Source: a virus
Direction: 5' to 3' (one strand)
Virus record (IMG/VR): IMGVR_UViG_3300050821_002033
Location: 1-29,503 of that record
Length of the DNA stretch: 29,503 bases
Positions 15,388 to 29,503 of this stretch are shown here, piece after piece. The notes under the pieces are model-generated. The model was not told the DNA's origin, searched no databases, and was given only the letters and a program-made list of their open reading frames with translations. Within the stretch, counting starts at the first letter, position 1. The number at the start of each line of letters is the position of its first letter. The position numbers and the translations under genes were made by a program.

Positions 15388-15869
15388 CAGTCACCAATCC
15401 ATTTCGAGTACATGCGGTCGGTCGGTGTCCAGTCGAGATACTCAAACAGTTTGCCGATGTCGAAGTGCTCTTTCGTCCCGCCGATGAGCTTTTTGACGCC
15501 CAATTTCTTCGATTCCGATTCAAAGAACTTCAGGAAGCGAATTCCGTTCCGGCCCTTGCGGTAAGACTGCTCCATGAACATGATGTCAATCTGCGCCATC
15601 GGCGTGGACTTGTAGTGTATGTGATTGAAAATGGTGAAGATGTTGTAGCCCACCAGTTCATTAACCTCATTGCGGGCCGTCAGGAAATGCATCATCCCCA
15701 GCTTCTCAAGTTCCTGATATTTGTCATAGTCCGGGTCGAGCGGAATCTTATTCTTGAGAAGGGCAATTTCCTCCCAATGAAGTTCCAGGAGCCGCTTGAT
15801 TTCAGAGATGACTTCGGCGTAGGTTTCCTTGGCGAAGGTCACGCTAGTTCCGATTTCGAGAGCCTTCAT
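15387..15869 (-). CDS. GNAT-family acetyltransferase
   Basis: A 160-residue protein starting at ATG 15867-15869 in an ATGA overlap; an earlier in-frame start at 15899 lies inside the upstream gene. The fold order fits GNAT: an N-terminal helix with LLELHWEEIALLKN, a strand-helix region, ELVGYNIFTIFNHIHYKST, then AQIDIMFMEQSYRKGRNGIR near residues 92-111. The last segment matches motif A, where Arg/Lys-x-x-Arg-x-Gly-x-Arg binds acetyl-CoA. GVKKLIGGTKEHFDIGKLFE follows, and the C-terminus forms the last strand. Acetyltransferases of this type occur between hub and ejection genes of several podoviruses. The substrate is unknown; a virion protein or a host protein met on entry are possible. Confidence 0.75.
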   Translation of the reverse strand: MKALEIGTSVTFAKETYAEVISEIKRLLELHWEEIALLKNKIPLDPDYDKYQELEKLGMMHFLTARNEVNELVGYNIFTIFNHIHYKSTPMAQIDIMFMEQSYRKGRNGIRFLKFFESESKKLGVKKLIGGTKEHFDIGKLFEYLDWTPTDRMYSKWIGD

Positions 15870-16132
15870 ATCAGCTGCACCCAAGTCTTTCCGTTCCACA
15901 GGTCTACGTGCCCGCTGTCCGTCTCATACACTATAGACCCTATTGTCAAGTTGCCTGTGGCTAAAGCGAGACGCTGACTGTGGGTAAGTGTATACGCTTT
16001 GGGGCTAGAGGCCATGAAAGAAATGATCGACTGGAAGAATTGCTGCCAGGCAAGGACAAAGTTCCCATCCGAGCCGATGGGCTTGGTCTGGAAGATGGCC
16101 AGTTGCGCGTTTTGTGTCGTAGTTGTTGGCAT
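15866..16132 (-). CDS. small tail protein
   Basis: An 88-residue protein starting at a TGATG overlap with the gp10-like gene. The N-terminal half is helical (FVLAWQQFFQSIISFMAS), and the C-terminal part, GSIVYETDSGHVDLWNGKTW, resembles the Tyr-x-Thr-Asp...Trp-x-Gly-x-x-Trp beta motif common at the ends of phage tail and fibre proteins. Its place directly after the tail hub gene is that of the P22 gp26 tail needle or gp14. It is far shorter than gp26 and has no long coiled coil, so I call it only a small tail or tail-completion protein. Confidence 0.65.
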   Translation of the reverse strand: MPTTTTQNAQLAIFQTKPIGSDGNFVLAWQQFFQSIISFMASSPKAYTLTHSQRLALATGNLTIGSIVYETDSGHVDLWNGKTWVQLI

Positions 16133-18051
16133 CAGCTAACCTTTTGGTATTGCCGGACCAGTCTCTCGCTTGGCTTGTAGCCAGGTTCGGCGTTGATGTA
16201 GCCATTGACGATGCGGATGGGCACAGACTCTGAACAAGTGACTTCAAGAGTCCTAATCCTCGCCGCTCCCAGCCTGTACCAGATTACGCGCGTCTTCCAT
16301 TGCCCGGCTTGCCCCGCGTCTCGTGACTGGGCATTTGACCACGTATGTCCAGCGTCGTCTGACCATCTGAGCCAGACGAGCGGCCCGCGAGCAAACAGGC
16401 TGAAATTCTGCGAAGTCTGCAAAAGCCCCGTTGCCGTTACGCTCAAATTCCAAGCATTCGTCGGAGAAACCATTGGGATGGTCGAGGGATTGGCAGCGTT
16501 GAATGTAACCACGGTTGTGGTCAGCAGTCCGGCAATCGTGACGCCTAGCTGCCAGGTCGCCGCGCCGACATTCAGAAAGATGGTTTGGGCCGCTCCGAGT
16601 GAACCTGAAGTTGTTTGGAGCAGGCCAGCCGAGGTAACGGTCACGCCCCACAGGATGCCATTGGCATCTTTCAGCGTCAGGATCGTAGGACTTCCCCCGC
16701 CAGTCTGGAGAGGCGGCTCAGGCCCAAGCCCTGTCTCCATATCCAACGTGAACTTGTCGAAGCGCGTCATTTCCAGCTCTGTCGAGATGTGCGGCGCACG
16801 GCGTAGCTTGATGATTGGCACGCCGGCATTGCTGTAGAAACTTGTGCTCATCTGGTAGAGGTTCGCTGACCGCCAATCGCCTACTACGTGGAAACCATTC
16901 CAGTAAGCATGGTTCCAGCTTGGATGGCCGAGACTTCCTCCGGTCGCCTCACTGAGCAAATCCCTTTCATGCCAAAGTCCCGTCGCCACGTCATAGACCC
17001 AAGTAGCCCCGTTTCCATTGTTAGCCGAGGGGAACAGCACGACCCAGAAAGCGTGGCCTTGGTCCTGATAGGCATAGCTGACCGCATCGCTGCGCTTGGG
17101 GTAGCTTTTCCAGGCCAGTTCCACGGCGTGCGTCGTGATTCTCTGAGGCGTCAAGCCATTCAGCCGGAAGCCCATGCCATCGCCTTTGTCGTCGCCTGAA
17201 ACCCAGAAAGGCGAGTTGTCCAGCTTGCTCATCGCAAACGTAGCGATAGCGCCTTGCTCGACAAAGGAACCTGGCTGAACAGTGAAAATATTGATCGGGT
17301 CGCCAGAGCTGTAAGCAACAGTCGCTTTGCGGCCCAGGAGCCAAAGATTCCGGTGGTCTACGATCATGCCAACCACGTTTTCAGGATAGACGCTGACGAT
17401 GATCTGACTGGAGACGCCTCCGGTATAGACTCCGCCGACTATCGAGCCGCCAGGAATCCAGTTGTAGCCGTCGAGGACATTCGAGATTTGAATGCTCTGG
17501 CTATTGGCAATCAGGGCTAGAAAGAACGAATCGCAGAAGGCCACTTGTTTGACAGGGGCATTGCCTCCGGCAGTCGTGAAGTTTGAGGCTGGCACTTGCT
17601 TAAACGTTCCTGCTGCAATCGGCAGCCCAGTCACGGAATCGTTTATCTTGTTCAGGTAGTAGATGTAGACGTTTCCCGCGCTAGAAATGAGCAGCTGATT
17701 TTCGTTGGCGGCAATCGAGGCTGGCAACCCATCGTTGGCCATTGGTGCGCCGGGATTGAGCGCCGTGAGGGAAACGACCGCGGGGCTGGTCAGCGTCGGG
17801 GGCGAAACAAGGATGACTTGATAGAAATTCACCCCGCCTACAACATAAAGCATCCCGTTGAATTCAAGCTCCGCTCTCGAAGCAGCGTCCAGTTGGGCAA
17901 GGATGGCCAAGCCGGGCGTGTTCAGCAAGGTCATCTTTGACCGGCCATCGCCAGACTCGACTATTTCGGGATATAGGTTTAGCGTGCGCTGATTGTCAGC
18001 GTTGATTGTGGAGAGGGTGTAACTTCCTGAGCAAAAATCGAACTGTGCGAT
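16132..18051 (-). CDS. gp10-like tail hub / packaged-DNA stabilisation protein
   Basis: A protein of about 639 residues in the P22 gp10 position after gp4. Repeated FW, YW and Trp-Asp motifs suggest a beta propeller, as in gp10-like hub proteins that plug the portal and hold fibres. The annotated-looking ATG at 17932-17934 is too far downstream: the frame upstream of it encodes AQFDFCSGSYTLSTINADNQ, then RTLNLYPEIVESG, the conserved N-terminus of this family. No ATG, GTG or TTG lies in that part. The family usually begins M-A-Q-F-D-F, and the codon in the Met position is ATC (18049-18051), seven bases after AGGAG. I therefore place the start at ATC. The gene is in the same frame as gp4, divided from it by one TAA and one GGT codon. 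Confidence 0.8.
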   Translation of the reverse strand: MAQFDFCSGSYTLSTINADNQRTLNLYPEIVESGDGRSKMTLLNTPGLAILAQLDAASRAELEFNGMLYVVGGVNFYQVILVSPPTLTSPAVVSLTALNPGAPMANDGLPASIAANENQLLISSAGNVYIYYLNKINDSVTGLPIAAGTFKQVPASNFTTAGGNAPVKQVAFCDSFFLALIANSQSIQISNVLDGYNWIPGGSIVGGVYTGGVSSQIIVSVYPENVVGMIVDHRNLWLLGRKATVAYSSGDPINIFTVQPGSFVEQGAIATFAMSKLDNSPFWVSGDDKGDGMGFRLNGLTPQRITTHAVELAWKSYPKRSDAVSYAYQDQGHAFWVVLFPSANNGNGATWVYDVATGLWHERDLLSEATGGSLGHPSWNHAYWNGFHVVGDWRSANLYQMSTSFYSNAGVPIIKLRRAPHISTELEMTRFDKFTLDMETGLGPEPPLQTGGGSPTILTLKDANGILWGVTVTSAGLLQTTSGSLGAAQTIFLNVGAATWQLGVTIAGLLTTTVVTFNAANPSTIPMVSPTNAWNLSVTATGLLQTSQNFSLFARGPLVWLRWSDDAGHTWSNAQSRDAGQAGQWKTRVIWYRLGAARIRTLEVTCSESVPIRIVNGYINAEPGYKPSERLVRQYQKVS

Positions 18052-18054
18052 ACC

Positions 18055-18786
18055 TTATCTCCTGTCAACATACGTATCGCTGCGCCAATCGTAGTATCCA
18101 TCCCTGCCAGTAAGCCCTGAATCACATGTCAGGATAGGCGCCGGAAGGTTCAATTCCTTGAGAGCTGCCAAAGAGTTTTGCGCGATGCCGAGTACGAGCT
18201 GGTCGGGCGTCAATTTGTATTCCGCCATCAAAGCAATGGCCAGATTGTATTTCAGCGCGCGCGCATAGGCTGGTGGAAAGGTGACGTTTGTTGTGTTCAG
18301 GTCTGGGAACGTCGAGAGCGGATTCCAGCAGTAGAGAACCAGAGAACACGCAAGGCTCGGAATCTGGTACACGTACAGGTTCATGTTGGGGTAGGCATAA
18401 TCCGGGTAGACGTTTAGCGGATAGTTGCCCTGGATGTTCTTGACCCGGATATTGGCCCAGCCTTCGTAGTCGAGCAAGGAAATGGGGATTTCTGGCGGCT
18501 GCGTGGGGTTGGAGCCTGTCAGAAGCATCCCAGCCCGTTGAATCTTCGCTGGACGGATGTAGGCAAAAGTGCCTGTAGGCCCGAGCGTGTAGACTTGCTG
18601 GCCGATGACAAGCGGCAATGTCAGGATGTTTTCTTGGAAGACTTTTAGCCCGTCAGCCTGCCACTCATCAATCATGTCCTGCGCGATGACAAGACATTCT
18701 TGGGGCATGTTGCCTTGCAGGACATCGCCGCTGGCCAAAAGCCCTGCAAGCCTGGCGGCTGCATTGAGCAGGTCTTGGCCAAGCAT
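18055..18786 (-). CDS. gp4-like tail accessory factor (head-tail connector)
   Basis: A 243-residue protein. The N-terminal helix (LGQDLLNAAARLAGLLASGD) and the following MIDEWQADGLKVFQENIL, then QQVYTLGPTGTFAYIRPAKI, ISLLDYEGWANI, NVYPDYAYPNMNLYVYQIPS and FPPAYARALKYNLAIALMAE form the well-known pattern of P22 gp4-type connector proteins (P22_AR/gp4-like tail accessory family). These bind under the portal after DNA packaging and receive the hub. The gene starts three bases after the upstream stop and ends with TAA in the frame of the gp10-like gene. It carries the ribosome-binding site of that gene in its last codons. Confidence 0.8.
   Translation of the reverse strand: MLGQDLLNAAARLAGLLASGDVLQGNMPQECLVIAQDMIDEWQADGLKVFQENILTLPLVIGQQVYTLGPTGTFAYIRPAKIQRAGMLLTGSNPTQPPEIPISLLDYEGWANIRVKNIQGNYPLNVYPDYAYPNMNLYVYQIPSLACSLVLYCWNPLSTFPDLNTTNVTFPPAYARALKYNLAIALMAEYKLTPDQLVLGIAQNSLAALKELNLPAPILTCDSGLTGRDGYYDWRSDTYVDRR
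18058..18063 (-). promoter_or_regulatory. Shine-Dalgarno that fixes the ATC start
   Basis: The minus strand reads AGGAGA here, inside the last codons of the gp4-like gene. The AGGAG core ends seven bases before the ATC at 18049-18051, an ideal distance. No other usable start codon in the gp10-like frame lies near enough to use it. It is the main sequence argument for initiation at ATC. Confidence 0.7.
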
Positions 18787-18789
18787 CGC

Positions 18790-19353
18790 TTAGGGTCTCG
18801 CTTCTGGCCTCTTTGCCTTGGGTGCGGGAATCGGGTCGAACTCTTCCTCGACATGCTCCTCGGGTAGTCCTTCGAGGTCGTTGATGTTGCTGACCCAGCC
18901 TTCGGCTTCGAGTTTCTTTTCAAGGGCAGCCGAGGCTTTATAGTCAATAGCCCCGTTCGGGTCATCGTTCACAAAGACAGCCACGCTCTTAGTCAGGTAG
19001 GGATGCTTTTGCAAGATATACCCGCCGCTATCCCTCGTCTTCCCCAGCACTTTGAACCCCCTATCCGAAATGCCGAGCGATTGCGCCAAGTCGAATGGCA
19101 GCGGGTAGCTGGGAGCGATTTCATCCCCGGCAGGCACGCCTTTACGGAGAGCAAGCCGATACATGACCTTGGGATAGCTGGCGCATTCCTTTTTGACTCG
19201 TTCGGCGTAGGCTTTGTCGCGCTTCGAGATGCGCGGGGGGCGAATCTCATTCTTCTCCATAGCTTCGATCTGCTCTGGAGTGCGGCCCATCGAATCCGTC
19301 TCCACGACATACATAACCTGCTCGTCGCGGGGACGGCTGAGAATCTGCGTCAT
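18790..19353 (-). CDS. head/structural-region protein, unknown
   Basis: A 187-residue protein starting at an ATGA overlap. It is charged and mostly helical, with GRTPEQIEAMEKNEIRPPRI, then DKAYAERVKKECASYPKVMY in the middle, followed by PFDLAQSLGISDRGFKVLGK. The tail is acidic and then Lys/Pro-rich. I do not recognise a family. It sits among the small genes between coat and gp4-like connector, where head completion or virion-associated proteins are expected. Confidence 0.6.
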   Translation of the reverse strand: MTQILSRPRDEQVMYVVETDSMGRTPEQIEAMEKNEIRPPRISKRDKAYAERVKKECASYPKVMYRLALRKGVPAGDEIAPSYPLPFDLAQSLGISDRGFKVLGKTRDSGGYILQKHPYLTKSVAVFVNDDPNGAIDYKASAALEKKLEAEGWVSNINDLEGLPEEHVEEEFDPIPAPKAKRPEARP

Positions 19354-19631
19354 GGCTTCACCTCTTGGACTGGCTGGACGGGATGTGGTGCAGGCGGCTG
19401 AGGCGGCGCAGGCGGCTGAGGTGCTGGCGGCTTGGGAGCCGGTGCAGGAGGCTTGACGGGCTTTGGCCCAGCCGTCAGCGTGAACTCCTGGCCAATCTCG
19501 TACAAAAAGACTTCCTTTTCAGGCGGAGGCACGGGCAGGAAAATCTCTCCCCGCAAGCCATCTTCCCCGGTTAGGGTCAGCGTAAAGTCGCCATTCGGCG
19601 TTTGCGTGTTCTTTGTGACTTTCAGTTTCAT
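19350..19631 (-). CDS. small protein with Pro/Ala-rich tail
   Basis: A 93-residue protein starting at MKLKVTKNTQTPNGDF, eight bases after GGAG. The first 58 residues alternate polar and hydrophobic residues in a way that suggests a small beta barrel (FTLTLTGEDGLRGEIFLPV; YEIGQEFTLTA). The last 35 are almost only Pro, Ala, Lys and Gln in PPAP-type repeats, encoded by a GC-rich repeat at about 19360-19460. Such a tail is extended and may span a distance on the capsid surface. The function is unknown. The stop overlaps the next gene as ATGA. Confidence 0.6.
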   Translation of the reverse strand: MKLKVTKNTQTPNGDFTLTLTGEDGLRGEIFLPVPPPEKEVFLYEIGQEFTLTAGPKPVKPPAPAPKPPAPQPPAPPQPPAPHPVQPVQEVKP

Positions 19632-19633
19632 GG

Positions 19634-20071
19634 TTAGCTCCAAGTTCCTATGCCTGTGGTTTGAATGTTGACGGCTCCGCTGTTTACGATGGTCACTACG
19701 AAATCCCGAAACGTTTGGGGGCCTACAGTGTAGGTGCCTGGAGCCACAAAGGTAACGCCCGTTCCAGCTGCTAACGTCAGCGTGTTGGTGATAACCGTAT
19801 TCGTGATTCGCAAGGTGAAAGCAAAGCCGTTGACGTTTTGCGTTCCCACTAAGGCAACAACATCGGCATACATCTGCGCCGCTGTGCGGGTGGTCATAGT
19901 TCCCGGAGTGGCTGCCGTCGTCAGCAGGAAAACATCGTCTGTTCCCGTGATGGCGTTGGCTGGGAAAACAATCGGCCCAGCCGTGGCAAGGGTGGAAACT
20001 GTAGAACCGAGCGTTATCAGAACGTCGTTGACAGCAGACTCATCAAGTGCTCCGCGATGCGTGATAGCCAT
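19634..20071 (-). CDS. structural-region beta protein, unknown
   Basis: A 145-residue protein whose ATG at 20069-20071 follows AAGGAG by four bases; longer forms from 20230 would run over the upstream gene. It begins MAITHRGALDESAVNDVLIT and is rich in Thr, Val and Ala with beta-strand alternation (TGVTFVAPGTYTVGPQTF, RDFVVTIVNSGAVNIQT). The C-terminal part repeats short Thr/Ile strands, like a small beta barrel or virion decoration protein. No family is recognised. The position between coat and connector genes suggests a head-associated role. Confidence 0.65.
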   Translation of the reverse strand: MAITHRGALDESAVNDVLITLGSTVSTLATAGPIVFPANAITGTDDVFLLTTAATPGTMTTRTAAQMYADVVALVGTQNVNGFAFTLRITNTVITNTLTLAAGTGVTFVAPGTYTVGPQTFRDFVVTIVNSGAVNIQTTGIGTWS

Positions 20072-20079
20072 GAGTCTCC

Positions 20080-20718
20080 TTACAAGCGGGATGGAATCCA
20101 CTTCTGAATGTTCAGGTCGAGAATGAAGGTAGCATAGTTCCCGGTCTGTACCGCGGTGCTCGAGGCGTTGAACGGGTAGAACGTGCCCGGTGCGCCAACG
20201 GTGCCGGATACCGCTCCGCCTGTCGCCCAAGACGCCGCGCCATCGAACACGATGTTGATTTCTCCGCCCTGCTCATACCCTGCCGGGGGAGCCATCGTGG
20301 TTAAGGCTGTAGTGCCGCTGACATGGAAGAACGCGCTTGGAGCGGTAATGGCAGCCGCCGAAGCCACCACGCCAGAGAATCCTTGGAACTTATTGGGTAG
20401 CGCAGGAACAGCGGTCTGTTCTGCCGGGGAGAATGCCGGGAAGTCGGTTGTAAGTCCCGCGGTCACTGTGGAGTTGACGGTGTGCGCTGAGGCCTGTGAG
20501 CCAAGCTCTCCGCGCGCCACGCTGATAACCGTGCCGTTTACGCCCGTCACCTTCATCATTTCCTGCTCGATCAAAAGGTAGGTCACGCCGCCAGAGATGC
20601 CTTTCGTCGGGTCGCCAATCTGGTAGTTGGGAGCCGTAATGCCAGTTGCGCTCGTGACGTTGACAACCGTGTCCGTGAGGAGCACCGCAGCTGAAAGAGT
20701 GGTTACAGTGATAGCCAT
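20080..20718 (-). CDS. head-region structural protein, unknown
   Basis: A 212-residue protein starting at ATG, four bases after AAGGAGA and nine bases after the coat stop. Its N-terminal half (MAITVTTLSAAVLLTDTVVN; YLLIEQEMMKVTGVNGTVIS; VARGELGSQASAHTVNSTVT) matches a short module common in phage structural proteins, where an Ile-Asp/Glu-x-E-xMx-V strand is followed by an R-G-x-x-G-(T/S)-x-A-x-x-H loop. The C-terminal half is Gly/Ala/Thr-rich and beta-like. The exact role is unknown; head decoration or completion is likely from its place directly after coat. Confidence 0.65.
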   Translation of the reverse strand: MAITVTTLSAAVLLTDTVVNVTSATGITAPNYQIGDPTKGISGGVTYLLIEQEMMKVTGVNGTVISVARGELGSQASAHTVNSTVTAGLTTDFPAFSPAEQTAVPALPNKFQGFSGVVASAAAITAPSAFFHVSGTTALTTMAPPAGYEQGGEINIVFDGAASWATGGAVSGTVGAPGTFYPFNASSTAVQTGNYATFILDLNIQKWIPSRL

Positions 20719-20727
20719 CGTTTCTCC

Positions 20728-21945
20728 TTAGCTCATAATCCGGCAGGCCGTCTCTCCGTAGAGAGTGACCCAGCCATACAGAACGTCGAAACGCCCTGGC
20801 AGACGGTCTTGGTTGTAGTCGTAGGCTTTAAGGTAGCGCACGGAAAGCCCTAGTTGGTCGCTGGCCTTGCGCTCGCACATCTCAGCAGACCGGATAATGG
20901 GAAGGTCGGCCATTCCGAGAGCAAAGCTACCTTTGTGGAAGCAAAGCCCTTGCGGAGAGACGGTCGAAGCCGCGCCGCTGATGTTGATGCTTGCACCGGC
21001 TTGAGGAGCTGCGTTGACGTTCTGGAAAGGCCCGGAAAGCACGATAGCCGGGAAGATAGGCGCTGTGGCCGCGCCGCCAGAGCTGGTTACATCGGCGGTG
21101 AAAGTGAAAGACTGCAAGGAGTTGATTTGCGTCTTTTCCTGCGGGTTGACGGCGTAGACCCCCGTGGCCCCTGAGCCAATCGTGAATGTATTGCCCTTTT
21201 TATACAGCGCGGTCACCGACCCGGCATTGGAGAGCACAAGCGAAGCGCCGGACTGTCCACCGGCATTGACAGTAACCTGCGTTGCGCCGTTCAAAGCCCC
21301 TACAGTGTTGTTGGCTACGTTCTGGTCCATCTCCCAGACAGCGCCAATGGCCTGACGCATGTAGCCGGATTCGTACTGCTCGGAAATCGAGCTGCCCGGC
21401 TCAAGCAAGCCCTTCAAAGCGTCAACGATCTGCGGTTCCATCGCCTGCGAGATGATGATGGCGCGAGGCTCGAGAGCTGCCGCGTTATCATTCAATTTCT
21501 GCATGGCTTGGAGGTAAGTCAGGAGGGCATTGGGAACGGTGCCCGGCACGCCTACAAAGTTCGCTACGTTGGCGTACTGCAAGAGGCCATCGGAATCAAT
21601 CTTGTTGGCGATGCGCGCCATGCCGGGGTCGAGGAAGCGTTCCGTGAAGTTCTCAATATTGAGAGCGAAGTCTTTCGAGGAGAAGAACGTGTCAACGCCG
21701 AACTGCGTGGTGAGCGTCAGCTGCACGCTGGTTTCGGTCGCATCCTCAGCGTTGAAACCTTGACCGGATCGGCCTACAAAGCGGGGCGGCTTGCGGATGG
21801 CCAGAGTATCGCCAATCTGCGCGCCTTCGTCGCCAAAGTCGCGGTCGTAATCTCGGCGTACATGTTTGGTGAATTTTAGCTGGTTTTCAAGGACCGGCAA
21901 CCCTTCCATCGTGACCATCCCGATGGTAAGTAGCTGATTTGCCAA
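20728..21945 (-). CDS. P22-type major capsid (coat) protein
   Basis: A 405-residue coat protein of the P22 gp5-like family. The N-terminus ANQLLTIGMVTMEGLPVLEN, then RKPPRFVGRSGQ, TTQFGVDTFFSSKDFALNIE, RFLDPGMARIANKIDSDGLL, AAIGAVW/MDQNV-type central strands, AASTVSPQGLCFHKGSF and the C-terminal LDVLYGWVTLYGE-like end (RFDVLYGWVTLYGETACRIM) follow this family in order. It forms the shell with the HK97 fold plus an inserted domain. The start codon is TTG (21943-21945), seven bases after AGGAGG (21953-21958). A dedicated candidate promoter lies upstream, and the encoded GroES-like protein may assist folding, as P22 coat is a GroEL client. Confidence 0.93.
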   Translation of the reverse strand: MANQLLTIGMVTMEGLPVLENQLKFTKHVRRDYDRDFGDEGAQIGDTLAIRKPPRFVGRSGQGFNAEDATETSVQLTLTTQFGVDTFFSSKDFALNIENFTERFLDPGMARIANKIDSDGLLQYANVANFVGVPGTVPNALLTYLQAMQKLNDNAAALEPRAIIISQAMEPQIVDALKGLLEPGSSISEQYESGYMRQAIGAVWEMDQNVANNTVGALNGATQVTVNAGGQSGASLVLSNAGSVTALYKKGNTFTIGSGATGVYAVNPQEKTQINSLQSFTFTADVTSSGGAATAPIFPAIVLSGPFQNVNAAPQAGASINISGAASTVSPQGLCFHKGSFALGMADLPIIRSAEMCERKASDQLGLSVRYLKAYDYNQDRLPGRFDVLYGWVTLYGETACRIMS

Positions 21946-21961
21946 GTGGATTCCTCCTGTT

Positions 21962-21989
21962 TGGATTTACAGGTAGGAATCGCACCTAC
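21962..21989 (-). other. tRNA T-arm-like hairpin in the coat leader
   Basis: On the minus strand GTAGG and CCTAC (21985-21989 and 21973-21977) form a five-base-pair stem around the seven-base loop TGCGATT, one base from a normal T-loop TTCGATT. Seven bases (CTGTAAA), then T, then CCA (21962-21964) follow, in tRNA-like order. No matching acceptor strand, D-arm or anticodon arm was found upstream, so it is not a whole tRNA. It may be a remnant, a mimic or chance. Confidence 0.4.
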
Positions 21990-22078
21990 GAATTCTCATT
22001 TACTGCGCGCCGGATGACGCTCGGACGATGCGGCTTGCTTCCAGCGGTTGCCCACTACGGTGCAAGTAACCTGTGGTG

Positions 22079-22106
22079 AAGATACAACAAAATTGTGGCT
22101 TGTCAA
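22079..22106 (-). promoter_or_regulatory. candidate sigma70-type promoter for the coat gene
   Basis: On the minus strand a perfect TTGACA (22101-22106) is followed after 16 bases by TATCTT (22079-22084), four of six matches to TATAAT. It starts directly after the scaffold gene stop (22110-22112) and would give a leader of about 125 bases before the coat TTG. This would allow coat protein to be made at higher levels than the co-transcribed scaffold. No experimental proof can be read from the sequence. Confidence 0.55.
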
Positions 22107-22109
22107 GCC
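22097..22109. promoter_or_regulatory. 13-base palindrome over the -35 box
   Basis: GGCTTG-T-CAAGCC is a perfect inverted repeat around one base and includes the TTGACA box. It could be a small operator, letting a dimeric protein block the promoter. As RNA it could also fold into a stem of about five base pairs with a tiny loop after the scaffold stop, but no good T-run follows. Either reading is tentative. Confidence 0.4.
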
Positions 22110-22967
22110 CTATCTTCGGCGCAGACCTGCTTTGATGTCTGCCCGCCGCTTTTTCAGATATTCGTCTACATCCATTTCATCTGGCCTGCGTGTATCTACG
22201 GCGCTATTGCCGTTCAGCCGCTGCCCCGGCCTGCCAGCATTAGATACAAAGTCGTTTGGATGCACTGCCAATCGTTCCTGAATTCTGCCTACTTCGGCTA
22301 CTTGCTGGATGCCGTCCATTTGCATGAACTTGCGGGCGGTCGTTTCATTTTCTGGCTTAGCGAGGTAATAGGCTACTTCCGGGGCTTTCAGGCGAATAAT
22401 GGCTACCATCGCCTGATTATCCATCGTTAGGCCGCGCTCGCTGGCCTTCTGCAAGGTCTCGTTGAAGTCAGGGTACTGCACCATGAAAGCTTTACCCTTT
22501 TCAAGGAACCCATCAAACTCTTCTTTGCGCATTTGGTGCGCGGCAGGGTCGGGAACCGGAGTGACTGGAGCCGCTACTTTCGGCGTGATCTTGTCTTGCT
22601 GGCGGATAACCCACTCGGCCATCTTTTGCGAGAAGTCGGCATCTGTCTGGCCTTCCACCTTTTCAGGGCGTTTGTCATCTGCTGCAGCTTGGGCTTTGCG
22701 CCGGTCCAGCTCGGCTTGAATGTTCTTTTCGTTCTGCTGGGCAAGCTTGGATTCAAGCTCGGCCTTATCTTTGGCGGCTTTCTCCTCGATGGCGGCGTTC
22801 TTTTTGGTCAGCTCGGCTATGCGGGCTTCGACGGGATGCTTTTTCTTCTTCTTGTCGTTGAGGACTTCCGAGACGCGCTTGTCGGTCTCGGCATTGGGCG
22901 ATACTGGCGCTTCCACTACCGGCACTACAGCTTTCGGGTCAACAACTGGCGTGGCGGGTGTGCTCAT
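22110..22967 (-). CDS. scaffolding protein
   Basis: A 285-residue, highly charged helical protein starting at an ATGA overlap (ATG 22965-22967). It has a disordered Pro/Val-rich start, a Lys-rich segment and long coiled-coil helices (VEARIAELTKKNAAIEEKAA; ELDRRKAQAAADDKRPEKVE), a middle domain (FDGFLEKGKAFMVQYPDFNE), and a basic C-terminal helix (DEYLKKRRADIKAGLRRR) like the C-terminal coat-binding helix-turn-helix of P22 gp8. Length (P22 gp8 is 303 residues), position between portal and coat, and charge pattern all agree. It directs coat assembly and then leaves the procapsid. Confidence 0.82.
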   Translation of the reverse strand: MSTPATPVVDPKAVVPVVEAPVSPNAETDKRVSEVLNDKKKKKHPVEARIAELTKKNAAIEEKAAKDKAELESKLAQQNEKNIQAELDRRKAQAAADDKRPEKVEGQTDADFSQKMAEWVIRQQDKITPKVAAPVTPVPDPAAHQMRKEEFDGFLEKGKAFMVQYPDFNETLQKASERGLTMDNQAMVAIIRLKAPEVAYYLAKPENETTARKFMQMDGIQQVAEVGRIQERLAVHPNDFVSNAGRPGQRLNGNSAVDTRRPDEMDVDEYLKKRRADIKAGLRRR

Positions 22968-23233
22968 ATCCAATCCACGTCCAATTCTCCGCCTGCGCCG
23001 CCTATGACGATCTGCAAGCCATCGCGGAAGATGATTGGGTCAAAGATGAGTATGCCGGTCGTGAGCGTGGCCGGCGTGGCGCCATACTTCGCCACCACCC
23101 CGCCTGTCACGTTTGGCCCATCGTTGATTTGCAGGGTAAAGGTTCCGGCTACCGGGCAACTAAGCCCCAGCACCCGGCCCGTTCCCTGTTTTAGATTATA
23201 CGTTCCCGCCGCCGTTAGAACCGTTATTGCCAT
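22964..23233 (-). CDS. small beta-rich head protein
   Basis: An 89-residue protein starting at MAITVLTAAGTYNLKQGTGR, four bases after GGAGGA inside the 3' end of the portal gene (38-base overlap). Upstream in-frame starts would extend it through the portal gene and are less likely. It is rich in Gly, Thr and Val with beta-strand alternation (RVLGLSCPVAGTFTLQINDG; TLTTGILIFDPIIF), ending with GGELDVDWI. Short proteins of this kind lie next to portal or coat genes in many phages and may be decoration or head-fibre parts. The stop overlaps the scaffold start as ATGA. Confidence 0.7.
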   Translation of the reverse strand: MAITVLTAAGTYNLKQGTGRVLGLSCPVAGTFTLQINDGPNVTGGVVAKYGATPATLTTGILIFDPIIFRDGLQIVIGGAGGELDVDWI

Positions 23234-25451
23234 TCGCTCCTCCGGCCGCTTGTGCGGCCTGTTCCTTGGCGGCGTCCTGTGCCGACTCCGCCAAATCCTT
23301 TTCGTGTTCTTCTTGCGAGGCCGATGATGCTCTTTCGTGAGCCATTGTACTGATATGCACGAACTTATCAAAGTCTAGTTTCGCCGCGTCTATCTTGGCT
23401 GTCAGCCCAGCCACCTCAACCGATGCCGCTGCACGGATGTTTGCAATCTCAATGTCCTTGGCCGCCTGAATCTTTTCCTCTTTGATGGTCTGCATCATCT
23501 GCGAGTTTTGCTGCATCAGCTGCTGGTTGTGCTGCTCAAGGTTGCGGATGGTCGAGACGGCTTGCTGCAAGGCTACCTTGGGATCGGTGTTGCTATCATC
23601 GGCCAAGACATCGGGCGGAATGGTCTTCTTGAGCCGCGCCGCTATCTCGCGCGCGCCTGGCATGTCGCTATTGGCTACGATGATGTCCGAGGCCACTTTC
23701 ATTACCGTGCCAGTCTTGTCGGCTTCGGCCAGCTGGAGTTGCAAGGCAAAAGCTTCCTGGCGCTTCGTCTGATACGTCGGCCCAACGTCCACCACCACAT
23801 CATAGACGCCTTTCGATAAGTCGTAGACATCCTGTATCTCCGGGCTTTTCAGCTGGTTGGCGGCATTCGCCCGGCCAGAGTGGACGATGACATGCTGCAC
23901 TTCGCCGTCTGGCTTGATGATGCGCTGAATCCGGGGGGCATCATAAACATAGGGCGCCGCATCGAGCAACACCCGCCCTACAGCTCGAAGGAATCGACTG
24001 AGGTTGTCTGTGTAATTCAGGTTGGCTAGTTGGCTTTGCTGCTGGAGCGAGGCAATGGCTTTGCCTGATTGGTCGCTCTTGTTTTGCCCGAGGCTTGGCT
24101 CGTAAATGCCCGTAGTGGATTTGAAGTCTTGATCTGCCGCCACATTGAACTGCAACGCTGACTGAATCGGCGGCTCGAATTGATTCCTTTGCGGCAAGCT
24201 CGGCGCAGGCTGTCCTGTAGTAGTAACCAAATCGGCTTCAAGGTAGGCATAGTTGATGACGTTCGCTGTCTTCCACTTTGGGTCTTTGAACTGCCCTTTC
24301 CAGCCAATCCAAGGAGCCTTCGGAGCCAGTTGCATAATCTCGGCTCCGTAAGACCGGGTGTAGTTTATCTCTCGCTGGGCGTCCTTCGAGTTTCTGACAA
24401 TGCCATAAATCTTGCGGTCGCCATTCACATCAAAGTCTTCGCCAATTAGCGGGACAAGTGGGATGAAGCCGATCTTGCCGGGAAACGTGTAGCTGTACAT
24501 CCCGTCTTTGTATTTGTCGATGATCTCAACGGCATTGATGAGTGCGCAGCAAACCTTGCATTTCTTCCAAGGCCGCTTATCCACTGGCTTTGGTCGGTCT
24601 TCCGCCTTCTTGCCGCTGTGCCGCAAGTCATACAAACTCTTGCGGATAGACGTGCCATCGGCCATCAGGTACAGCTCATCGTACTCCCAGTCCTTGTACC
24701 AGTATTCGGCTACGCGGATGGTCTTTTTATCGCCCCAGAAGGGGAACTGGTCGCCAATCGATTGGAAATCCACCGCGCTGGCCAGCTGACTGCCTGGGAA
24801 CTGCGCCAGATACTCCGAAGTCGGATAGTCCACGACCTTGAACTTCCAATTGGCGTCCGATTCGTCCGGCAGCTGGCTCGACGGGTCGCAATAGATGGTA
24901 AATGGGTTCTTTACACGCCGGATGTAGAGTTCCTGGTCAAACGTCTCGCCAGAAAGGTAATCCCGGCAAATCTCGGCATAGCCCTTGCCTGCAAGGACCA
25001 TGTGCTCAAAGCCGCAGTCGTAGGCTATCTCGGCATCGCTATTGACCTGGATGTGCCGAAGCAGCCCTTCCAGCATATCCGCGTCATCCACATCAGCGCC
25101 ATCGCCCACAGGCTTAACAACAATCGAAGGTCGTTGCGCTCTCTGCTCATTGACGATTTGCCCCTTGACTGCCGGATAGCGGTTGATGGTCATGCAGGGC
25201 CGGTTGGAAGCGTCCCTGATGCGCTTGGTTTCTTGCGGCCACTGGTCGCCAGTCGCAAACCGCAAGTCAGATAGCCGGTCTTCGCGTTCTCTCGATTCGG
25301 CATCCACAGCCAGCTTGAAGCGTTCACGCGCTTGCGCTAGAAACTCTGTCAGGTCGTCTGGGGTGCCTACAACGATATCGCGGACGCGGATAGCACGCTT
25401 GCCGATGTTCTTTGAGGCTGTTTCGGCGTATTTGGCTGTGGATTTAGCCAT
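23196..25451 (-). CDS. P22-type portal protein
   Basis: A 751-residue portal (P22 gp1 has 725). The start ATG at 25449-25451 overlaps the previous stop as TAATG; the TTG at 25490 lies inside that gene. Recognisable blocks in order: REDRLSDLRFATGDQWP, RPCMTINRYPAVKGQIVNEQ, GFEHMVLAGKGYAEICRDYL, VKNPFTIYCDPSSQLPDESD, WKFKVVDYPTSEYLAQFPGS, KIYGIVRNSKDAQREINYTR and TTGIYEPSLGQNKSDQSGKA. The C-terminal 150 residues are a long helical barrel-type region (IRNLEQHNQQLMQQNSQMMQ) with a Gly/Asn tail. It forms the dodecameric ring at the packaging vertex, where terminase docks and the gp4-like protein later binds. Confidence 0.93.
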   Translation of the reverse strand: MAKSTAKYAETASKNIGKRAIRVRDIVVGTPDDLTEFLAQARERFKLAVDAESREREDRLSDLRFATGDQWPQETKRIRDASNRPCMTINRYPAVKGQIVNEQRAQRPSIVVKPVGDGADVDDADMLEGLLRHIQVNSDAEIAYDCGFEHMVLAGKGYAEICRDYLSGETFDQELYIRRVKNPFTIYCDPSSQLPDESDANWKFKVVDYPTSEYLAQFPGSQLASAVDFQSIGDQFPFWGDKKTIRVAEYWYKDWEYDELYLMADGTSIRKSLYDLRHSGKKAEDRPKPVDKRPWKKCKVCCALINAVEIIDKYKDGMYSYTFPGKIGFIPLVPLIGEDFDVNGDRKIYGIVRNSKDAQREINYTRSYGAEIMQLAPKAPWIGWKGQFKDPKWKTANVINYAYLEADLVTTTGQPAPSLPQRNQFEPPIQSALQFNVAADQDFKSTTGIYEPSLGQNKSDQSGKAIASLQQQSQLANLNYTDNLSRFLRAVGRVLLDAAPYVYDAPRIQRIIKPDGEVQHVIVHSGRANAANQLKSPEIQDVYDLSKGVYDVVVDVGPTYQTKRQEAFALQLQLAEADKTGTVMKVASDIIVANSDMPGAREIAARLKKTIPPDVLADDSNTDPKVALQQAVSTIRNLEQHNQQLMQQNSQMMQTIKEEKIQAAKDIEIANIRAAASVEVAGLTAKIDAAKLDFDKFVHISTMAHERASSASQEEHEKDLAESAQDAAKEQAAQAAGGANGNNGSNGGGNV

Positions 25452-25651
25452 TATTGGACAGCGAGTTTGCGGTTGACCTGCCTGCCGCAAATCTCCAGTA
25501 ATTCCTTAGTCTGCTTGGCTTTAGCCTGCTGTTTGAGTTCGTCTAGAACATCGGAGACGTTCTCCAGGTCGGGCGACACCATTCCAGCCCAATACTTGCC
25601 ATTTTTACAGAAGACGAGCACAACGCCGTCTTTAGGCCAAGATGCCTGCAA
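25451..25651 (-). CDS. small protein before portal, unknown
   Basis: A 66-residue protein starting with TTG (25649-25651), six bases after a full AGGAGG (25658-25663). It begins MQASWPKDGVVLVFCKNGKY, continues with a helical part (ENVSDVLDELKQQAKAKQTK) and ends in CGRQVNRKLAVQ. I do not recognise it. The excellent ribosome-binding site and the TAATG junction with the portal gene support it as a real gene, perhaps also serving to couple portal translation. It overlaps the end of the GroES-like gene by 20 bases. Confidence 0.6.
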   Translation of the reverse strand: MQASWPKDGVVLVFCKNGKYWAGMVSPDLENVSDVLDELKQQAKAKQTKELLEICGRQVNRKLAVQ

Positions 25652-26174
25652 TGTCGGCCTCCTGTACTAAGTGGATTCGTTCATCAAAACGGTAACTCAA
25701 TGGGCGCTCAAGCGGTGCGCTGCGGCTATAACGGTCTGAGCCAATGGGCCGCAACTCGCCATGCCGCAAATCGTTCCAGCGAGCATTGAAGATGACGAGC
25801 TGGCCGGGCTTAACGGCTGGAGTCTCGCGGTAGCCATCGAACCAATCCCAGAAATCGCCTATTCGCGTATGCCTGAACCGCCACGTCCCAGGTATCCACT
25901 TGCCCGGCCCCACAGCCAACACCCTGCCTTTGCGCAGCAGCATCTTATTGTCCGCTGTCGCTAAGTCAGTGATAACAATGGGGCTTTTGCGCCCTTGCTG
26001 GATTGGCTCAAGACGCTCGATGAAGACTTGGTCTTCCATCGGCTGCCAGTCGCAGGCGTTCCAGCCATGATGCTCTTCTGGGCCGTTTGGCTTAGGTAAG
26101 CAGCCACTAGCTACCTGGCTGGCGGCATGACTGCCGCGTCCGCTGCCCGCGCCTGCTCGGTCAGTTCTTCTCAT
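25632..26174 (-). CDS. GroES-like co-chaperonin
   Basis: Up to 180 residues. From MEDQVFIERLEPIQQGRKSP the chain follows the Cpn10 fold: first strand with V-x-x-E-R-L, a segment in the mobile-loop position (PIVITDLATADNKM), GRVLAVGPGKWIPGTW matching the GEVLAVGxGR element, KPGQLVIFNARWND matching VGDIVIFN, and a terminal IHLVQEADIAGIL matching the EVLIMSESDILAI end of GroES. About 24 extra residues, rich in aromatic and charged residues (RFRHTRIGDFWDWFDGYRE), are inserted before KPGQ. The first 45 residues (from ATG 26172-26174) have no GroES counterpart; ATG 26037-26039 is the alternative start. It probably works with host GroEL, possibly in coat folding. Confidence 0.78.
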   Translation of the reverse strand: MRRTDRAGAGSGRGSHAASQVASGCLPKPNGPEEHHGWNACDWQPMEDQVFIERLEPIQQGRKSPIVITDLATADNKMLLRKGRVLAVGPGKWIPGTWRFRHTRIGDFWDWFDGYRETPAVKPGQLVIFNARWNDLRHGELRPIGSDRYSRSAPLERPLSYRFDERIHLVQEADIAGILA

Positions 26175-26182
26175 GGATGGAA

Positions 26183-26329
26183 TTAAGGAGCCTTTCTGCC
26201 ACTGGCTCGAATCTTGAAATAGCTGGACTTGTTGTCACGCGCAAACCTCGATTGCGTCCTTGCTTCTTGGCCTAGCCGTGAAGTCGTGGACTGCTTTATG
26301 GCCTTCGGAATGAATGACTTGGGCTTCAA
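26183..26329 (-). CDS. 48-residue basic small protein
   Basis: This frame fills the otherwise empty stretch between two genes. The TTG start at 26327-26329 lies four bases after GGAGG (26334-26338) and overlaps the upstream TGA stop as TTGA, the same arrangement as the ATGA junctions elsewhere. It encodes a strongly basic peptide: KPKSFIPKAIKQSTTSRLGQ, then EARTQSRFARDNKSSYFKIR. I know of no family. Support is the junction, the ribosome-binding site and the exact fit to the gap; no homology evidence. Confidence 0.45.
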   Translation of the reverse strand: MKPKSFIPKAIKQSTTSRLGQEARTQSRFARDNKSSYFKIRASGRKAP

Positions 26330-26547
26330 TGCACCTCCGAGGAAAGATAGCAAGGCTTGTGCTTGAAACGCTGCGCTGCCTGTTCCAGTTGAGCTTCGGC
26401 CTGCAAAGTCTCGATGGCCTTGTTTAGTAGCAAGTCCTTGAAACTGAACTCCGTAGCCGGCAAGTCTAGGTCCTCGGGGTCAATATCCGCTGTGACTTGC
26501 GTAATGAACTTGCCTTGGTCGGTTGTGAGTGTGAGCAAGAGCTTCAT
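26326..26547 (-). CDS. small acidic protein after terminase
   Basis: A 73-residue protein starting at the ATG (26545-26547) that overlaps the terminase stop as TGATG; a TTG five codons earlier is less likely. It begins MKLLLTLTTDQGKFITQVTA, then an acidic DIDPEDLDLPATEFSF and a helix (NKAIETLQAEAQLEQAAQRF). No signal peptide or known motif. The function is unknown; the coupling to terminase suggests co-expression with packaging genes. Confidence 0.6.
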   Translation of the reverse strand: MKLLLTLTTDQGKFITQVTADIDPEDLDLPATEFSFKDLLLNKAIETLQAEAQLEQAAQRFKHKPCYLSSEVH

Positions 26548-28019
26548 CAGACAGCCATCCAACTTTGCGGGCCAGAAGGCAGTTCCGGCCGATCGTCATC
26601 GTGAGTATCTGCGTCAGGCGGCGCTACGTCAACAGCAAAAGTGAGACAAAGCGTGTCTGCGAGGTCCGGCGAGCGCAATCCGCGCTTTTTCATCATCTCT
26701 TTAGCTTCGATAACCACGCTTCCATGCGCTCGCTTGCCCTGGGCGTAATGAAACTGCGGACCTGTCAGGTCCGAGGCTAACTCTTCGTCGTCAGGGATTT
26801 GCGCGCCAGCTTCTAACCAAGATTTACATTTGCCCCACACCTCAGCTCTCCGGTTAAAGTACTTGACTGCATCAAAGGCTGATTCCGCTCCATCAAAACC
26901 CAAGCAGTCATAGCCCAATGCCCGTACATAATCAACGACGCCGCCGCCAACTCCTCCCGCGTCAACCACCGTGGCTTGCGGTTTGAGTTCCCCCATGCGA
27001 GTAATAAGCCTGTTAGCCGTAAACTGCGTGTCCCGGTTTCTGAACTTCTCAAGCTGGACATACTTCCTCCCCTGCCGGCAGCCGATTACAGTCTGGTCGT
27101 CGCCGAAACGTGCCACATCACACGCGAGGATTTTGGGCAGATATTCAAAACCTTCAGCTCGATAACGTCTGGCTCGCTGCACGACTTCTGAGGAGATAAA
27201 CTGGGTGTCACCCTGACGCGGGAAAACTCCACGTACACGTACCCTGAAGAAGTCCGAATTTTCGCCTTCATCTTCTTCCCATTGCTCATAAAGGGCCTTG
27301 TTAGTCCCTTCCACGGTCCTGCTATCAATGTGTCTATGACGCCAACGATGAGACTGGCTTCCGAAGCACTCAAAAAACGGTCCGTCATTAAGCGTTGGAT
27401 TTCCAAAGACAAGCCAGAGAATGACGGTGTTTTCATCGGTTAGCGCCCCTTTCGTGACTTCCCAGATGGGCCGGTTGATGGCCGATGCTTCATCGAATAT
27501 GACCAGGATGAGCTTCCCAGCATTGTGCAGGCCAGCAAAAGCCTCTGTGTTGTATTCCGACCACGTTTCGAAGTCAGCGCGGTAGGTAGCGCGATATTCA
27601 GCGTCTTTAACAGAGATACGGGTTGCTTGCACTTCCCAGAAGTCTTTATCATAGGCTAACCTGAACCATTTGCTGACCTCCGGCTGGGTCTTTGAGCTGA
27701 GTTGATTGCCCGTATTGGCTGTGATGATGCATCTTGCGCCAGGCCAACAACTTAGTGCCCACTTCAGAATCATGGCCACGAGAGCCGATTTGCCAATATC
27801 GTGCCCCGACGCGACCGCGGACTGGTAGGGCATATAGCGAGTCTCGGGATTCCTGATGTGCTCGCCAATGGCTTTGAGTTCTTCCGCTTGCCACGCTCTT
27901 GGCCCTTGGCTATTCGCCAGCTCGCCTTCGCCCCAAGGAAAGATAGCTTTTACAAGCCCCAGAGGATCATACGCATAACTGGCAATCTCCTCAACAAGTT
28001 CCAGTGCTTGGCTATTCAT
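26547..28019 (-). CDS. terL: terminase large subunit
   Basis: A 490-residue packaging motor protein starting at an ATGA overlap. The ATPase domain has Walker A SGHDIGKSA at residues 71-79, Walker B ILVIFDEAS at 171-179 with catalytic Glu177, and a coupling motif FGNP at 205-208. The nuclease domain has the RNase H-like acidic set: Asp301 in DVARFGDDQT, Asp353 in VVDAGGVGGG, and Asp455 in SPDLADTL. It cuts concatemeric DNA and drives it through the portal. Its length and domain order are complete. Whether packaging is headful or by cohesive ends cannot be told from the window. Confidence 0.95.
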   Translation of the reverse strand: MNSQALELVEEIASYAYDPLGLVKAIFPWGEGELANSQGPRAWQAEELKAIGEHIRNPETRYMPYQSAVASGHDIGKSALVAMILKWALSCWPGARCIITANTGNQLSSKTQPEVSKWFRLAYDKDFWEVQATRISVKDAEYRATYRADFETWSEYNTEAFAGLHNAGKLILVIFDEASAINRPIWEVTKGALTDENTVILWLVFGNPTLNDGPFFECFGSQSHRWRHRHIDSRTVEGTNKALYEQWEEDEGENSDFFRVRVRGVFPRQGDTQFISSEVVQRARRYRAEGFEYLPKILACDVARFGDDQTVIGCRQGRKYVQLEKFRNRDTQFTANRLITRMGELKPQATVVDAGGVGGGVVDYVRALGYDCLGFDGAESAFDAVKYFNRRAEVWGKCKSWLEAGAQIPDDEELASDLTGPQFHYAQGKRAHGSVVIEAKEMMKKRGLRSPDLADTLCLTFAVDVAPPDADTHDDDRPELPSGPQSWMAV

Positions 28020-28213
28020 GATCGCCAGCGAGCAATAGGCATATCAGTTGAGACGGTATAAACCCCATCAGGCCAGAGGCAGATAATGGTGCCATCTTCT
28101 AAGCACAAATCTTTGCGATGATTGGTCCCGCCGCGCACCATGACCTTAACTATCGGCAAATTATGGACTTTTCCCAATTTGCGAGTTCTCTTTTCACTAA
28201 GTCTCTGTCGCAC
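28016..28213 (-). CDS. small basic protein between terminase genes
   Basis: A 65-residue protein with a GTG start (28211-28213), overlapping the small terminase stop by 17 bases and the large terminase start as ATGA. It begins MRQRLSEKRTRKLGKVHNLP, goes on with VMVRGGTNHRKDLCLEDG and ends DGVYTVSTDMPIARWRS. The N-terminal half is very basic, and the rest is beta-like. I do not recognise it; a DNA- or RNA-binding role is possible. A weak GAGAG precedes the start. The ATGA junction with the large subunit supports expression. Confidence 0.55.
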   Translation of the reverse strand: MRQRLSEKRTRKLGKVHNLPIVKVMVRGGTNHRKDLCLEDGTIICLWPDGVYTVSTDMPIARWRS

Positions 28214-28568
28214 GCTTAGCTCTCATTTTAGTCAGGGCTTCGGTGTAATTCAGCGTTACATTGGCGTCGAGCGTCTGGGTGGGCATGCCATGCTTGTAGT
28301 TCATCAGCACGCGCCAGATATTTGCTGCAATCTCGGCTGCTTTGAGGCGAGCCGCCCAATTCACTACATCGCGCTGGTCAGTAACTTGGCCTTCATGGGC
28401 AAAGAACTTTGTTTCGAGCGCTTCATTGGCGGGATGGGTCATCAGTCGGCAGGCGAGTCGTTCCAAGCTGTCAGTATCCGGGTTAGCCTTCTTGAGCATC
28501 TTCTCGATGCGCTGGACAAATAGCTTAGCTTCGGGAAGTATGTTTTGTGACCCTTTTGGGCGTCCCAT
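28197..28568 (-). CDS. terS: terminase small subunit candidate
   Basis: A 123-residue protein. The N-terminal MGRPKGSQN is the Arg-Pro-Lys-Gly-Ser element that opens many small terminase subunits and binds DNA like an AT-hook. The rest is helical (EAKLFVQRIEKMLKKANPD; VVNWAARLKAAEIAANIWRV), and the C-terminus is basic (LTKMRAKRATET). Its place two genes before the large subunit fits. It would recognise the packaging site and feed the DNA to the motor. No Shine-Dalgarno sequence is seen before the ATG, and the upstream frame is closed by a stop six codons back. Confidence 0.65.
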   Translation of the reverse strand: MGRPKGSQNILPEAKLFVQRIEKMLKKANPDTDSLERLACRLMTHPANEALETKFFAHEGQVTDQRDVVNWAARLKAAEIAANIWRVLMNYKHGMPTQTLDANVTLNYTEALTKMRAKRATET

Positions 28569-28701
28569 ACGGGTATTTAGGCACTATTTCTGGGTATCCG
28601 CAAGTAAATTCGGCGGTTTAGTACCAGGATTCATGCAAGCCTCGCAGGAGTAGACCGTCTCTCATTTCTGCTCCTCCGACTGTTTGCCCGTGCCTGCTGG
28701 C
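28569..28701 (-). other. 133-base gap before small terminase
   Basis: This stretch holds no gene I can support. On the minus strand a GGAGGAG lies five bases before an ATG at about 28661, but the frame closes after 15 codons; a second 16-codon frame follows. It may be a leader region or a place for a packaging site close to the small terminase gene. I found no convincing promoter in it. Confidence 0.4.
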
Positions 28702-28860
28702 TCACTCGTTAGCTGCTAGGCCGCGCACTCGTTTAACGCTCTGTCCGCTCGGTGCGCCCCCGGACAACTGCGTACCTGGAGTAGTGGTTTGTGGACACGT
28801 CCAGATAGTAGGCAGCACCTCCAATCCGCTGAGCAGCAATGTCAGCACAATTTTAATCAT
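28702..28860 (-). CDS. small protein with signal-like N-terminus
   Basis: A 52-residue protein starting at MIKIVLTLLLSGLEVLPTIW, seven bases after GGGAG. The hydrophobic N-terminus is followed by a Cys at residue 22 and a Thr/Pro/Gly-rich segment (PQTTTPGTQLSGGAPSG), then a basic stretch. The plan (short hydrophobic leader, one Cys, Pro-rich tail) recalls outer-spanin (Rz1-like) lipoproteins, but the residues before the Cys are not a good lipobox. Its place near the terminase genes is also unusual for a spanin. A longer frame up to 29091 is closed off by the better-supported upstream gene. Confidence 0.45.
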   Translation of the reverse strand: MIKIVLTLLLSGLEVLPTIWTCPQTTTPGTQLSGGAPSGQSVKRVRGLAANE

Positions 28861-28886
28861 CAAACCGCTCCCTCTCTGCCCCGCGC

Positions 28887-29228
28887 TCAGGACTGCTTGG
28901 GCGGGCGCTCCGACTCTCTCCAATCCGGCAATGCGCAGAACATATCGAACCGTCTTACGATTGGACAAATAGCCGGACTCGTCTTGGTTTGAGTATTCGG
29001 AATCGGTGCGCAGATAACATCTGGATGGATGCGCATGAAAAGCGGCGGCTCTATTCGATGCTCCGCTTGAGCCATGACCACTTGCAACCAATCAAGGCAT
29101 TGTTTGTCAGACGGCTTCGGCTCGTCGTTTTTTATGCTCATCTTGGTGTAAAGAAAACACCGATACATCGCCAACAGGTCACCGTCTGTCATCTCAACCT
29201 TCTTGCTACGCTTAGTTTTGTCGCTCAT
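28887..29228 (-). CDS. unknown protein upstream of terminase
   Basis: A 113-residue protein. The start at ATG 29226-29228 is set by AAGGAGG (29240-29246) and an ATGA overlap with the upstream gene; the longer frame to 29306 runs antisense to nothing useful and lacks a site. It begins MSDKTKRSKKVEMTDGDLLA, then MYRCFLYTKMSIKNDEPKPS, and has a C-terminal part with ICPIVRRFDMFCAL. I do not recognise a family. It may belong to the end of the DNA-metabolism region before packaging genes. Confidence 0.65.
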   Translation of the reverse strand: MSDKTKRSKKVEMTDGDLLAMYRCFLYTKMSIKNDEPKPSDKQCLDWLQVVMAQAEHRIEPPLFMRIHPDVICAPIPNTQTKTSPAICPIVRRFDMFCALPDWRESERPPKQS

Positions 29229-29503
29229 CCGGCTTTCGCCTCCTTGTCTGGCTCCTGGCTGGCGAGGGCGGCGCGAATTAAATCTTCTGCTTTTGTAGCC
29301 AGCCACTTTTCTTGCTCCGCATAGGACAAGGCCGTCACAATCGGATTACGATGCTCGCTTGCGGAAGCAATTTCGTTTGCCAGTTTGTGCACCCACTGCT
29401 CGCTTGGCTGGCGGGCTGCGGCCAGCGCGTGTGACAACCTGACTGCCTTGCACAGATTGGCTGGCATCCCACAGCAAAAGTGGTCGCAGAATTCTACGCC
29501 GCT
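29225..29503 (-). CDS. unknown protein, cut by window edge
   Basis: The frame is open to the right edge, 92 codons in view. An ATG at 29465-29467 lies inside it but has no good ribosome-binding site, and the twelve codons before it (SGVEFCDHFCCG) look like coding sequence, so the start is probably outside the window. The visible part has three Cys near the edge, then LCKAVRLSHALAAARQPSEQ, and a helical, charged rest ending in EPDKEAKAG. The function is unknown. The stop overlaps the next start as ATGA. Confidence 0.55.
   Translation of the reverse strand, partial: SGVEFCDHFCCGMPANLCKAVRLSHALAAARQPSEQWVHKLANEIASASEHRNPIVTALSYAEQEKWLATKAEDLIRAALASQEPDKEAKAG

Follow-up and report, generated by a model that had tools for sequence, protein, structure and literature searches.

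The window, by which we mean the whole stretch of DNA that was analysed, is a virus record from IMG/VR, 29,503 bases long. Its late genes, from the TerL-like gene through coat and the genes further downstream, all lie on the minus strand. In listed order the late region holds the TerL-like gene (26547-28019), a Cpn10-like gene, a P22-like portal gene (23196-25490), the scaffold gene (22110-22973; phrog_8865 head scaffolding protein, E 3.1e-15) and the coat gene, a P22-like major capsid gene with a TTG start (20728-21945; PF11651, E 3.1e-28; phrog_283, E 3.4e-54). Judging from its sequence, the scaffold gene probably starts at an ATG two codons inside its open reading frame (LDMSTPAT). The scaffold stop codon ends at 22110 and the coat TTG lies at 21945, leaving a gap of 164 nt. 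An initial annotation of the window had singled out this gap as the exception among the late-gene junctions, and it is the sole long non-coding gap found between TerL and position 5108. The stretches between TerL and portal contain small ORFs (one of ~50 aa, by eye), and what looks like a gap of 120 nt (17935-18054) can be read in frame from an ATC right after the preceding gene. The phrog_578 (Hc3) gene at 17935-18051 likely uses this ATC as its start codon.

Directly after the scaffold stop, the minus strand reads GGCTTGACAAGCC at 22109-22097, with a TTGACA hexamer inside it at 22106-22101. A TATCTT hexamer is located 16 nt further on, at 22084-22079. The initial annotation had reported both these boxes, between scaffold and a long coat leader, and the palindrome GGCTTG-T-CAAGCC around the TTGACA, and all are present. 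The boxes match the sigma-70 consensus TTGACA/TATAAT at 10 of 12 bases, and the spacer falls within the 15-19 nt range of sigma-70 promoters. Scored with an approximate sigma-70 matrix, the site reaches 13.8, the top score of the 29.5 kb with both strands counted. When the 215 nt ahead of coat were shuffled with dinucleotides preserved, 2 of 1,000 shuffles reached this score. A site in the 3' part of the portal gene, TTGATA-16-TACAAT at 23371-23344, equals the coat site to one decimal, so that the score alone is not decisive and conservation has to decide. A consensus scan of 14000-29503 found no overall enrichment of promoter-like sites (9 found, 6.7 expected).

RNA made from these boxes would start near 22072, a position guessed as ~7 nt past the -10 box, giving a predicted coat leader of ~127 nt (21946-22072, minus strand). 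A long leader had been noted in the initial annotation, but its main feature, a predicted hairpin that buries the ribosome-binding site, had been missed. This hairpin, of 6 + 7 + 5 bp, extends over 21943-21988 on the minus strand and includes both the coat Shine-Dalgarno (SD) sequence AGGAGG (21953-21958) and the TTG start. Its predicted energy is -23.3 kcal/mol (52-nt segment folded), the unpaired probability of the SD core is 0.002 and the fold of the window leader has a z-score of -3.43 against shuffles. Two further hairpins are predicted in the leader: H1 (CUUGC:GCAAG with inner UAGUGG:CCGCUG; 22034-22066), which appears in the folds of both the window and its relative L002, and H2 (GCGUC AUCC GGCGC; 22007-22020). 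By eye, the inner helix of H1 has one two-sided change between the window and L002 (A-U to G-C), and GC-rich hairpins occur at a like place to H2 in several relatives. A short alternative hairpin, GUAGG-7-CCUAC, can be drawn at 21973-21989 (-4.5 kcal/mol vs -23.3 kcal/mol for the SD hairpin). Because it shares sequence with the 5' arm of the SD hairpin, only one of the two can form at a time; the same short hairpin is readable by eye in L004 and L015. The T-arm-like GUAGG-UGCGAUU-CCUAC was considered as part of a tRNA in the leader, and no tRNA was found. Rfam gave no match at the gathering score in the window or in 10 of the 13 relatives described below, and window positions 21850-22250 gave none even at E up to 1.

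Scanning viral_contigs with the window coat protein yielded 14 loci, and the coat alignment added L026, a near relative, and L029, which is distant and partial. Further scans with the coats of L012, L009, L004 and L026 brought up new contigs only at 40-43% identity. The set used for comparison consists of the 14 loci, window included, that have DNA upstream of coat; the coat proteins of the relatives are 72-99% alike. Left out were L003/L017 and L046, without DNA upstream of coat, L013/L027, which hold the 3' part of coat and come from the same contig as L014, L029 (25% identity, partial), and repeats of earlier contigs (L016, L018-L025, L028, L041, L042, L058, L066). In the coat tree the window falls into clade A with L002, L004 and L015 (support 100/99), and L005-L012, L014 and L026 form group B, with support of only 84/70; L015 and L014 entered this tree as fragments of 87 and 171 residues, respectively. 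In the contigs L043, L044, L045 and L047 (41-43% identity), the upstream stop codon lies within ~25 nt of the coat start by eye, and no promoter boxes were seen by eye. A scan of genome_contigs gave 148 candidate stretches and no relatives, and a near DNA search of window 20000-25000 in phages gave no match. A pattern scan of viral_contigs with a leader piece returned 18 matches; one (L058) is the L011 contig, and the other 17, next to which no coat start was seen by eye, were read as chance.

The SD core was located within a predicted hairpin in all 14 loci, in each case one that is long, imperfect and located at the junction of the genes. Its unpaired probability was at most 0.013 in 13 loci and 0.26 in L002. 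When the part from SD to start was kept fixed, shuffles reached the observed pairing in 0-15 of 200 cases in 13 loci and in 62 of 200 in L002. The coat SDs were more paired than 54 mechanically picked SDs from the same loci (Mann-Whitney p 4e-6, with related loci counted apart), and in 7 of the 54 controls pairing was no weaker than in the coat SD from the same locus. The z-scores of whole-leader folds, computed for 13 of the 14 loci with L009 left out, ranged from -1.30 to -3.71 and were not all strong.

In all nine distinct group B sequences (10 loci), the fold is a hairpin whose outer stem contains the SD. Two-sided changes occur in this outer stem (U-A to G-C in L011, U-A to C-G in L012) and in the apical helix of L026 (C-G to G-C and G-U to U-A). 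Exceptions among the folds are the outer stem of L026, which has four core pairs only, an unpaired position in L009 and a bulge in L006. RNAalifold on an automatic alignment gave 11 pairs, of which two changed on both sides; its covariation term of 0.11 is no support, and the covariation evidence therefore comes from the comparison of single folds. It was read from group B; a model-made alignment still had one-column shifts, and the members of clade A were too few. A model of the group B hairpin (R2) found no match at E up to 10 in 18 sources comprising the window, clade A and 14 distant loci, so that the covariation comes from the relatives and not from the window. Another hairpin model (R1) gave a single weak match (window 6693-6749, E 0.024) that was not seen again with R2. 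As predicted by these folds, burial of the SD is common to the window and clade A on the one hand and group B on the other; the sequence of the hairpin is not. Separately, group B leaders (e.g. L010:5911-5955) carry, ahead of the first hairpin, a C-rich motif (CCCC, UCCC, UCUCC or UCCG) complementary to the G-rich strand (GGGG, GGGA, GGGGA or CGGA) on the 5' side of the middle helix. By eye this complementarity is present in all nine distinct sequences and may reflect long-range pairing or a switch.

Coat starts, assigned from the SD and the conserved N-terminus, are TTG in ten loci, GTG in three and ATC in one (L008:1594-1596). The scaffold ORFs of these loci, listed mechanically, begin with ATG in 13 of 14 cases, and coat starts with ATG, as annotated, in all 11 distant phage records. 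Since portal ORFs start with TTG or GTG in all four clade A loci, non-ATG starts are not confined to coat. Ten of the 11 distant records with a P22-type coat have an upstream gene annotated on the same strand, and in these only 6-59 nt lie between it and coat. These data bear on an alternative that we consider unlikely, in which only the promoter matters, the leader hairpin stabilises the RNA or is processed by RNase III, and coat is translated freely once the hairpin has been cut or melted by ribosomes. It would fit the long imperfect junction hairpin predicted in every locus and the need for coat in bulk. However, the SD itself is paired and the coat starts are all non-ATG, which points to initiation rather than stability.

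A site comparable to that of the window was found upstream of coat in 12 of the 14 loci, with scores of 10.8-15.2. The -35 hexamer is TTGACA in 11 of these and TTGACT in L012, and the -10 box follows after 16 nt in nine, 17 nt in one and 18 nt in two, all within the sigma-70 range. Among all sites on the two strands of its locus, the coat site scores highest in 9 of the 14 loci and comes second in L006, third in L009 and sixth in L005. The lowest scores (10.8-11.5) belong to L005, L008, L009, L012 and L014. Shuffles of the local upstream DNA reached the coat-site score in 1-46 of 1,000 cases across the 12 promoter-bearing loci. In the group B alignment, which is gappy in this stretch, TTGAC is invariant in 10 of 10 rows and none of the spacer columns is.

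Additional ORFs are present between scaffold and coat in L002, L006, L010, L012, L014 and L004, and in the first five of these the boxes still adjoin coat. In L006 and L014 they lie within the 3' end of an ORF with a T5orf172/MUG113 domain (L006:5366-5869; L014:5329-5841), the -10 box overlapping its stop codon, and their homology to the other boxes is doubtful for this reason. A similar small ORF after scaffold, with no Pfam match at E 0.01, is found at L002:4970-5404, L010:5405-5860 and L014:4861-5316. L005 has a terminator-like hairpin of 10 pairs with a T-rich tail, whose end is 11 nt ahead of TTGACA. The stretch L005:5770-5857, just ahead of the coat promoter, holds a promoter-like site, ~35 nt and then this hairpin, and could encode a short RNA. 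The scaffold-coat gap of Xanthomonas phage PBR31 (L031:2442-2500) also contains, by eye, a terminator-like hairpin, CCCCGCCAAGTGCGGGG-TTTTG.

Two loci, L004 and L015, have no boxes (best scores 4.5 and 4.6), yet retain gaps of 130 and 125 nt. The initial annotation had named loss of the boxes in close relatives that keep the gap as an observation against the promoter; it is seen in these 2 of 14 loci, and the other 12 keep the boxes. L004 and L015 are sisters in the coat tree, and their lack of boxes is most simply explained by one loss rather than taken as a refutation. The predicted SD hairpin is kept where the promoter was lost, which suggests that the functions of promoter and leader are separable.

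The portal end provided a control, for which 11 of the 13 relatives were used (L008 and L009 left out). Their best sites scored 4.7-11.1, compared to 13.8 for the portal site of the window. The site with 11.1, in L014, is 36 nt away from the place of the window portal site, which thus has no equal among the 11. It is very unlikely that the boxes before coat arose by chance and lack function, with the late genes transcribed from far upstream. The equal-scoring portal site, the missing boxes in L004 and L015 and the absence of an overall enrichment in the region are in keeping with such a view, but a high-ranked site right before coat in 12 of 14 loci, compared with portal-end sites that do not exceed 11.1 in any of the 11 relatives examined, argues against it. 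Even less probable is that the boxes were inherited and not selected, in relatives too close for their conservation to count: the coat proteins are indeed alike, but the gap DNA of group B aligns poorly (mean column identity 52%) and the boxes begin anywhere from 124 to 188 nt ahead of the aligned coat start, yet they recur. A separate coat promoter is well supported by these sequence comparisons. The arrangement is kept in most close relatives, which suggests that coat is controlled separately from the other late genes.

The initial annotation had also proposed that transcription of coat is repressible through the palindrome, and had suggested conservation of the box spacing and of the palindrome as a check. 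The spacing is conserved, as described above; the palindrome is not. The 13-nt GGCTTG-T-CAAGCC over the -35 box (22097-22109) has its perfect form in the window alone. Of the six arm positions, one to five match in the other 11 promoter-bearing loci (L012 1; L007, L008 and L009 2; L005 and L026 3; L002, L010 and L014 4; L006 and L011 5), and TTGACAA by itself supplies three of the six. L002, a clade A relative with 96% coat identity, retains the -35 box with four arm positions. In the window, perfect 6+1+6 palindromes occur six times and six-bp inverted repeats (centres of 0-8) 44 times. Binding of a repressor from phage or host over the -35 box would be favoured by a perfect palindrome lying exactly there and by the recurrence of its CTTG-N-CAAG core once more in the window, at 522-530 besides 22099 (with one more G, on the plus strand, only at 22099). 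We regard such a repressor as highly improbable, since none of the 11 other loci has the palindrome in perfect form and TTGACAA accounts for part of it. On sequence grounds the palindrome is probably incidental. The claim of separate coat transcription is well supported, with the promoter adjoining coat in 12 of 14 loci, also where other ORFs intervene, and with the terminator-like hairpin ahead of it in L005; the claim that it is repressible is not supported.

Collectively, the locus is probably best explained by a sigma-70-type promoter of coat's own, combined with a leader that hides the ribosome-binding site and throttles coat translation. A host-type RNA polymerase would probably read the promoter at 22106-22079 (minus strand), and the leader of the resulting RNA would fold so as to enclose the ribosome-binding site of coat in the long hairpin, together with the TTG start in the case of the window. 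The likeliest purpose would be abundant coat mRNA that does not depend on the late operon upstream, with the leader and the weak start codon holding coat translation down. Promoter activity is strongly suggested, and the translational brake moderately so, by the matrix scores and predicted folds. A permanently hidden ribosome-binding site would be ill-suited to an abundant virion protein unless something opens the hairpin. We infer that the promoter fires, that the leader holds translation down and that some signal relieves it. Feedback from the scaffold or coat protein might limit coat translation, which is a speculative proposal that we hold only tentatively.

A local promoter of the major capsid gene is known from T7, where it is phi10. 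For the T7-like Pseudomonas phage LUZ100, a promoter just upstream of the capsid gene is described (PMC10134795). In these T7-like phages the promoter is phage-specific and the capsid gene is followed by a strong terminator. The window resembles them in having a predicted local promoter upstream of the capsid gene. It differs in that the promoter is sigma-70-like, and in that no terminator was found after coat by a strict perfect-stem search. The late operon of P22 is transcribed from one promoter, and synthesis of its scaffold is feedback-controlled. The window shares with P22 the gene order portal-scaffold-coat and the coat family; in contrast to feedback on scaffold and a single late promoter, it has a predicted coat promoter and a predicted structured leader. 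Translational operators that sequester the SD are known as riboswitch expression platforms and as ribosomal-protein and RNA-phage operators. The coat leader is similar to these in its ribosome-binding site being buried in a recurring hairpin, and unlike them has no known ligand or protein and no match to an Rfam family. Such a leader before a P22-like coat gene was described in none of the matches listed, as judged by titles and opening abstract lines in the open-licence literature.

Phages must balance coat against scaffold. If the reading of a coat promoter with a throttling leader is true, one P22-like lineage balances coat with a private promoter and a translational brake, and the coat leader is an RNA element absent from Rfam. 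It is conceivable, if doubtful, that in this lineage of P22-like phages with a private coat promoter, the leader is a new phage regulatory RNA switch that senses capsid protein or another signal and would keep coat from outrunning scaffold.
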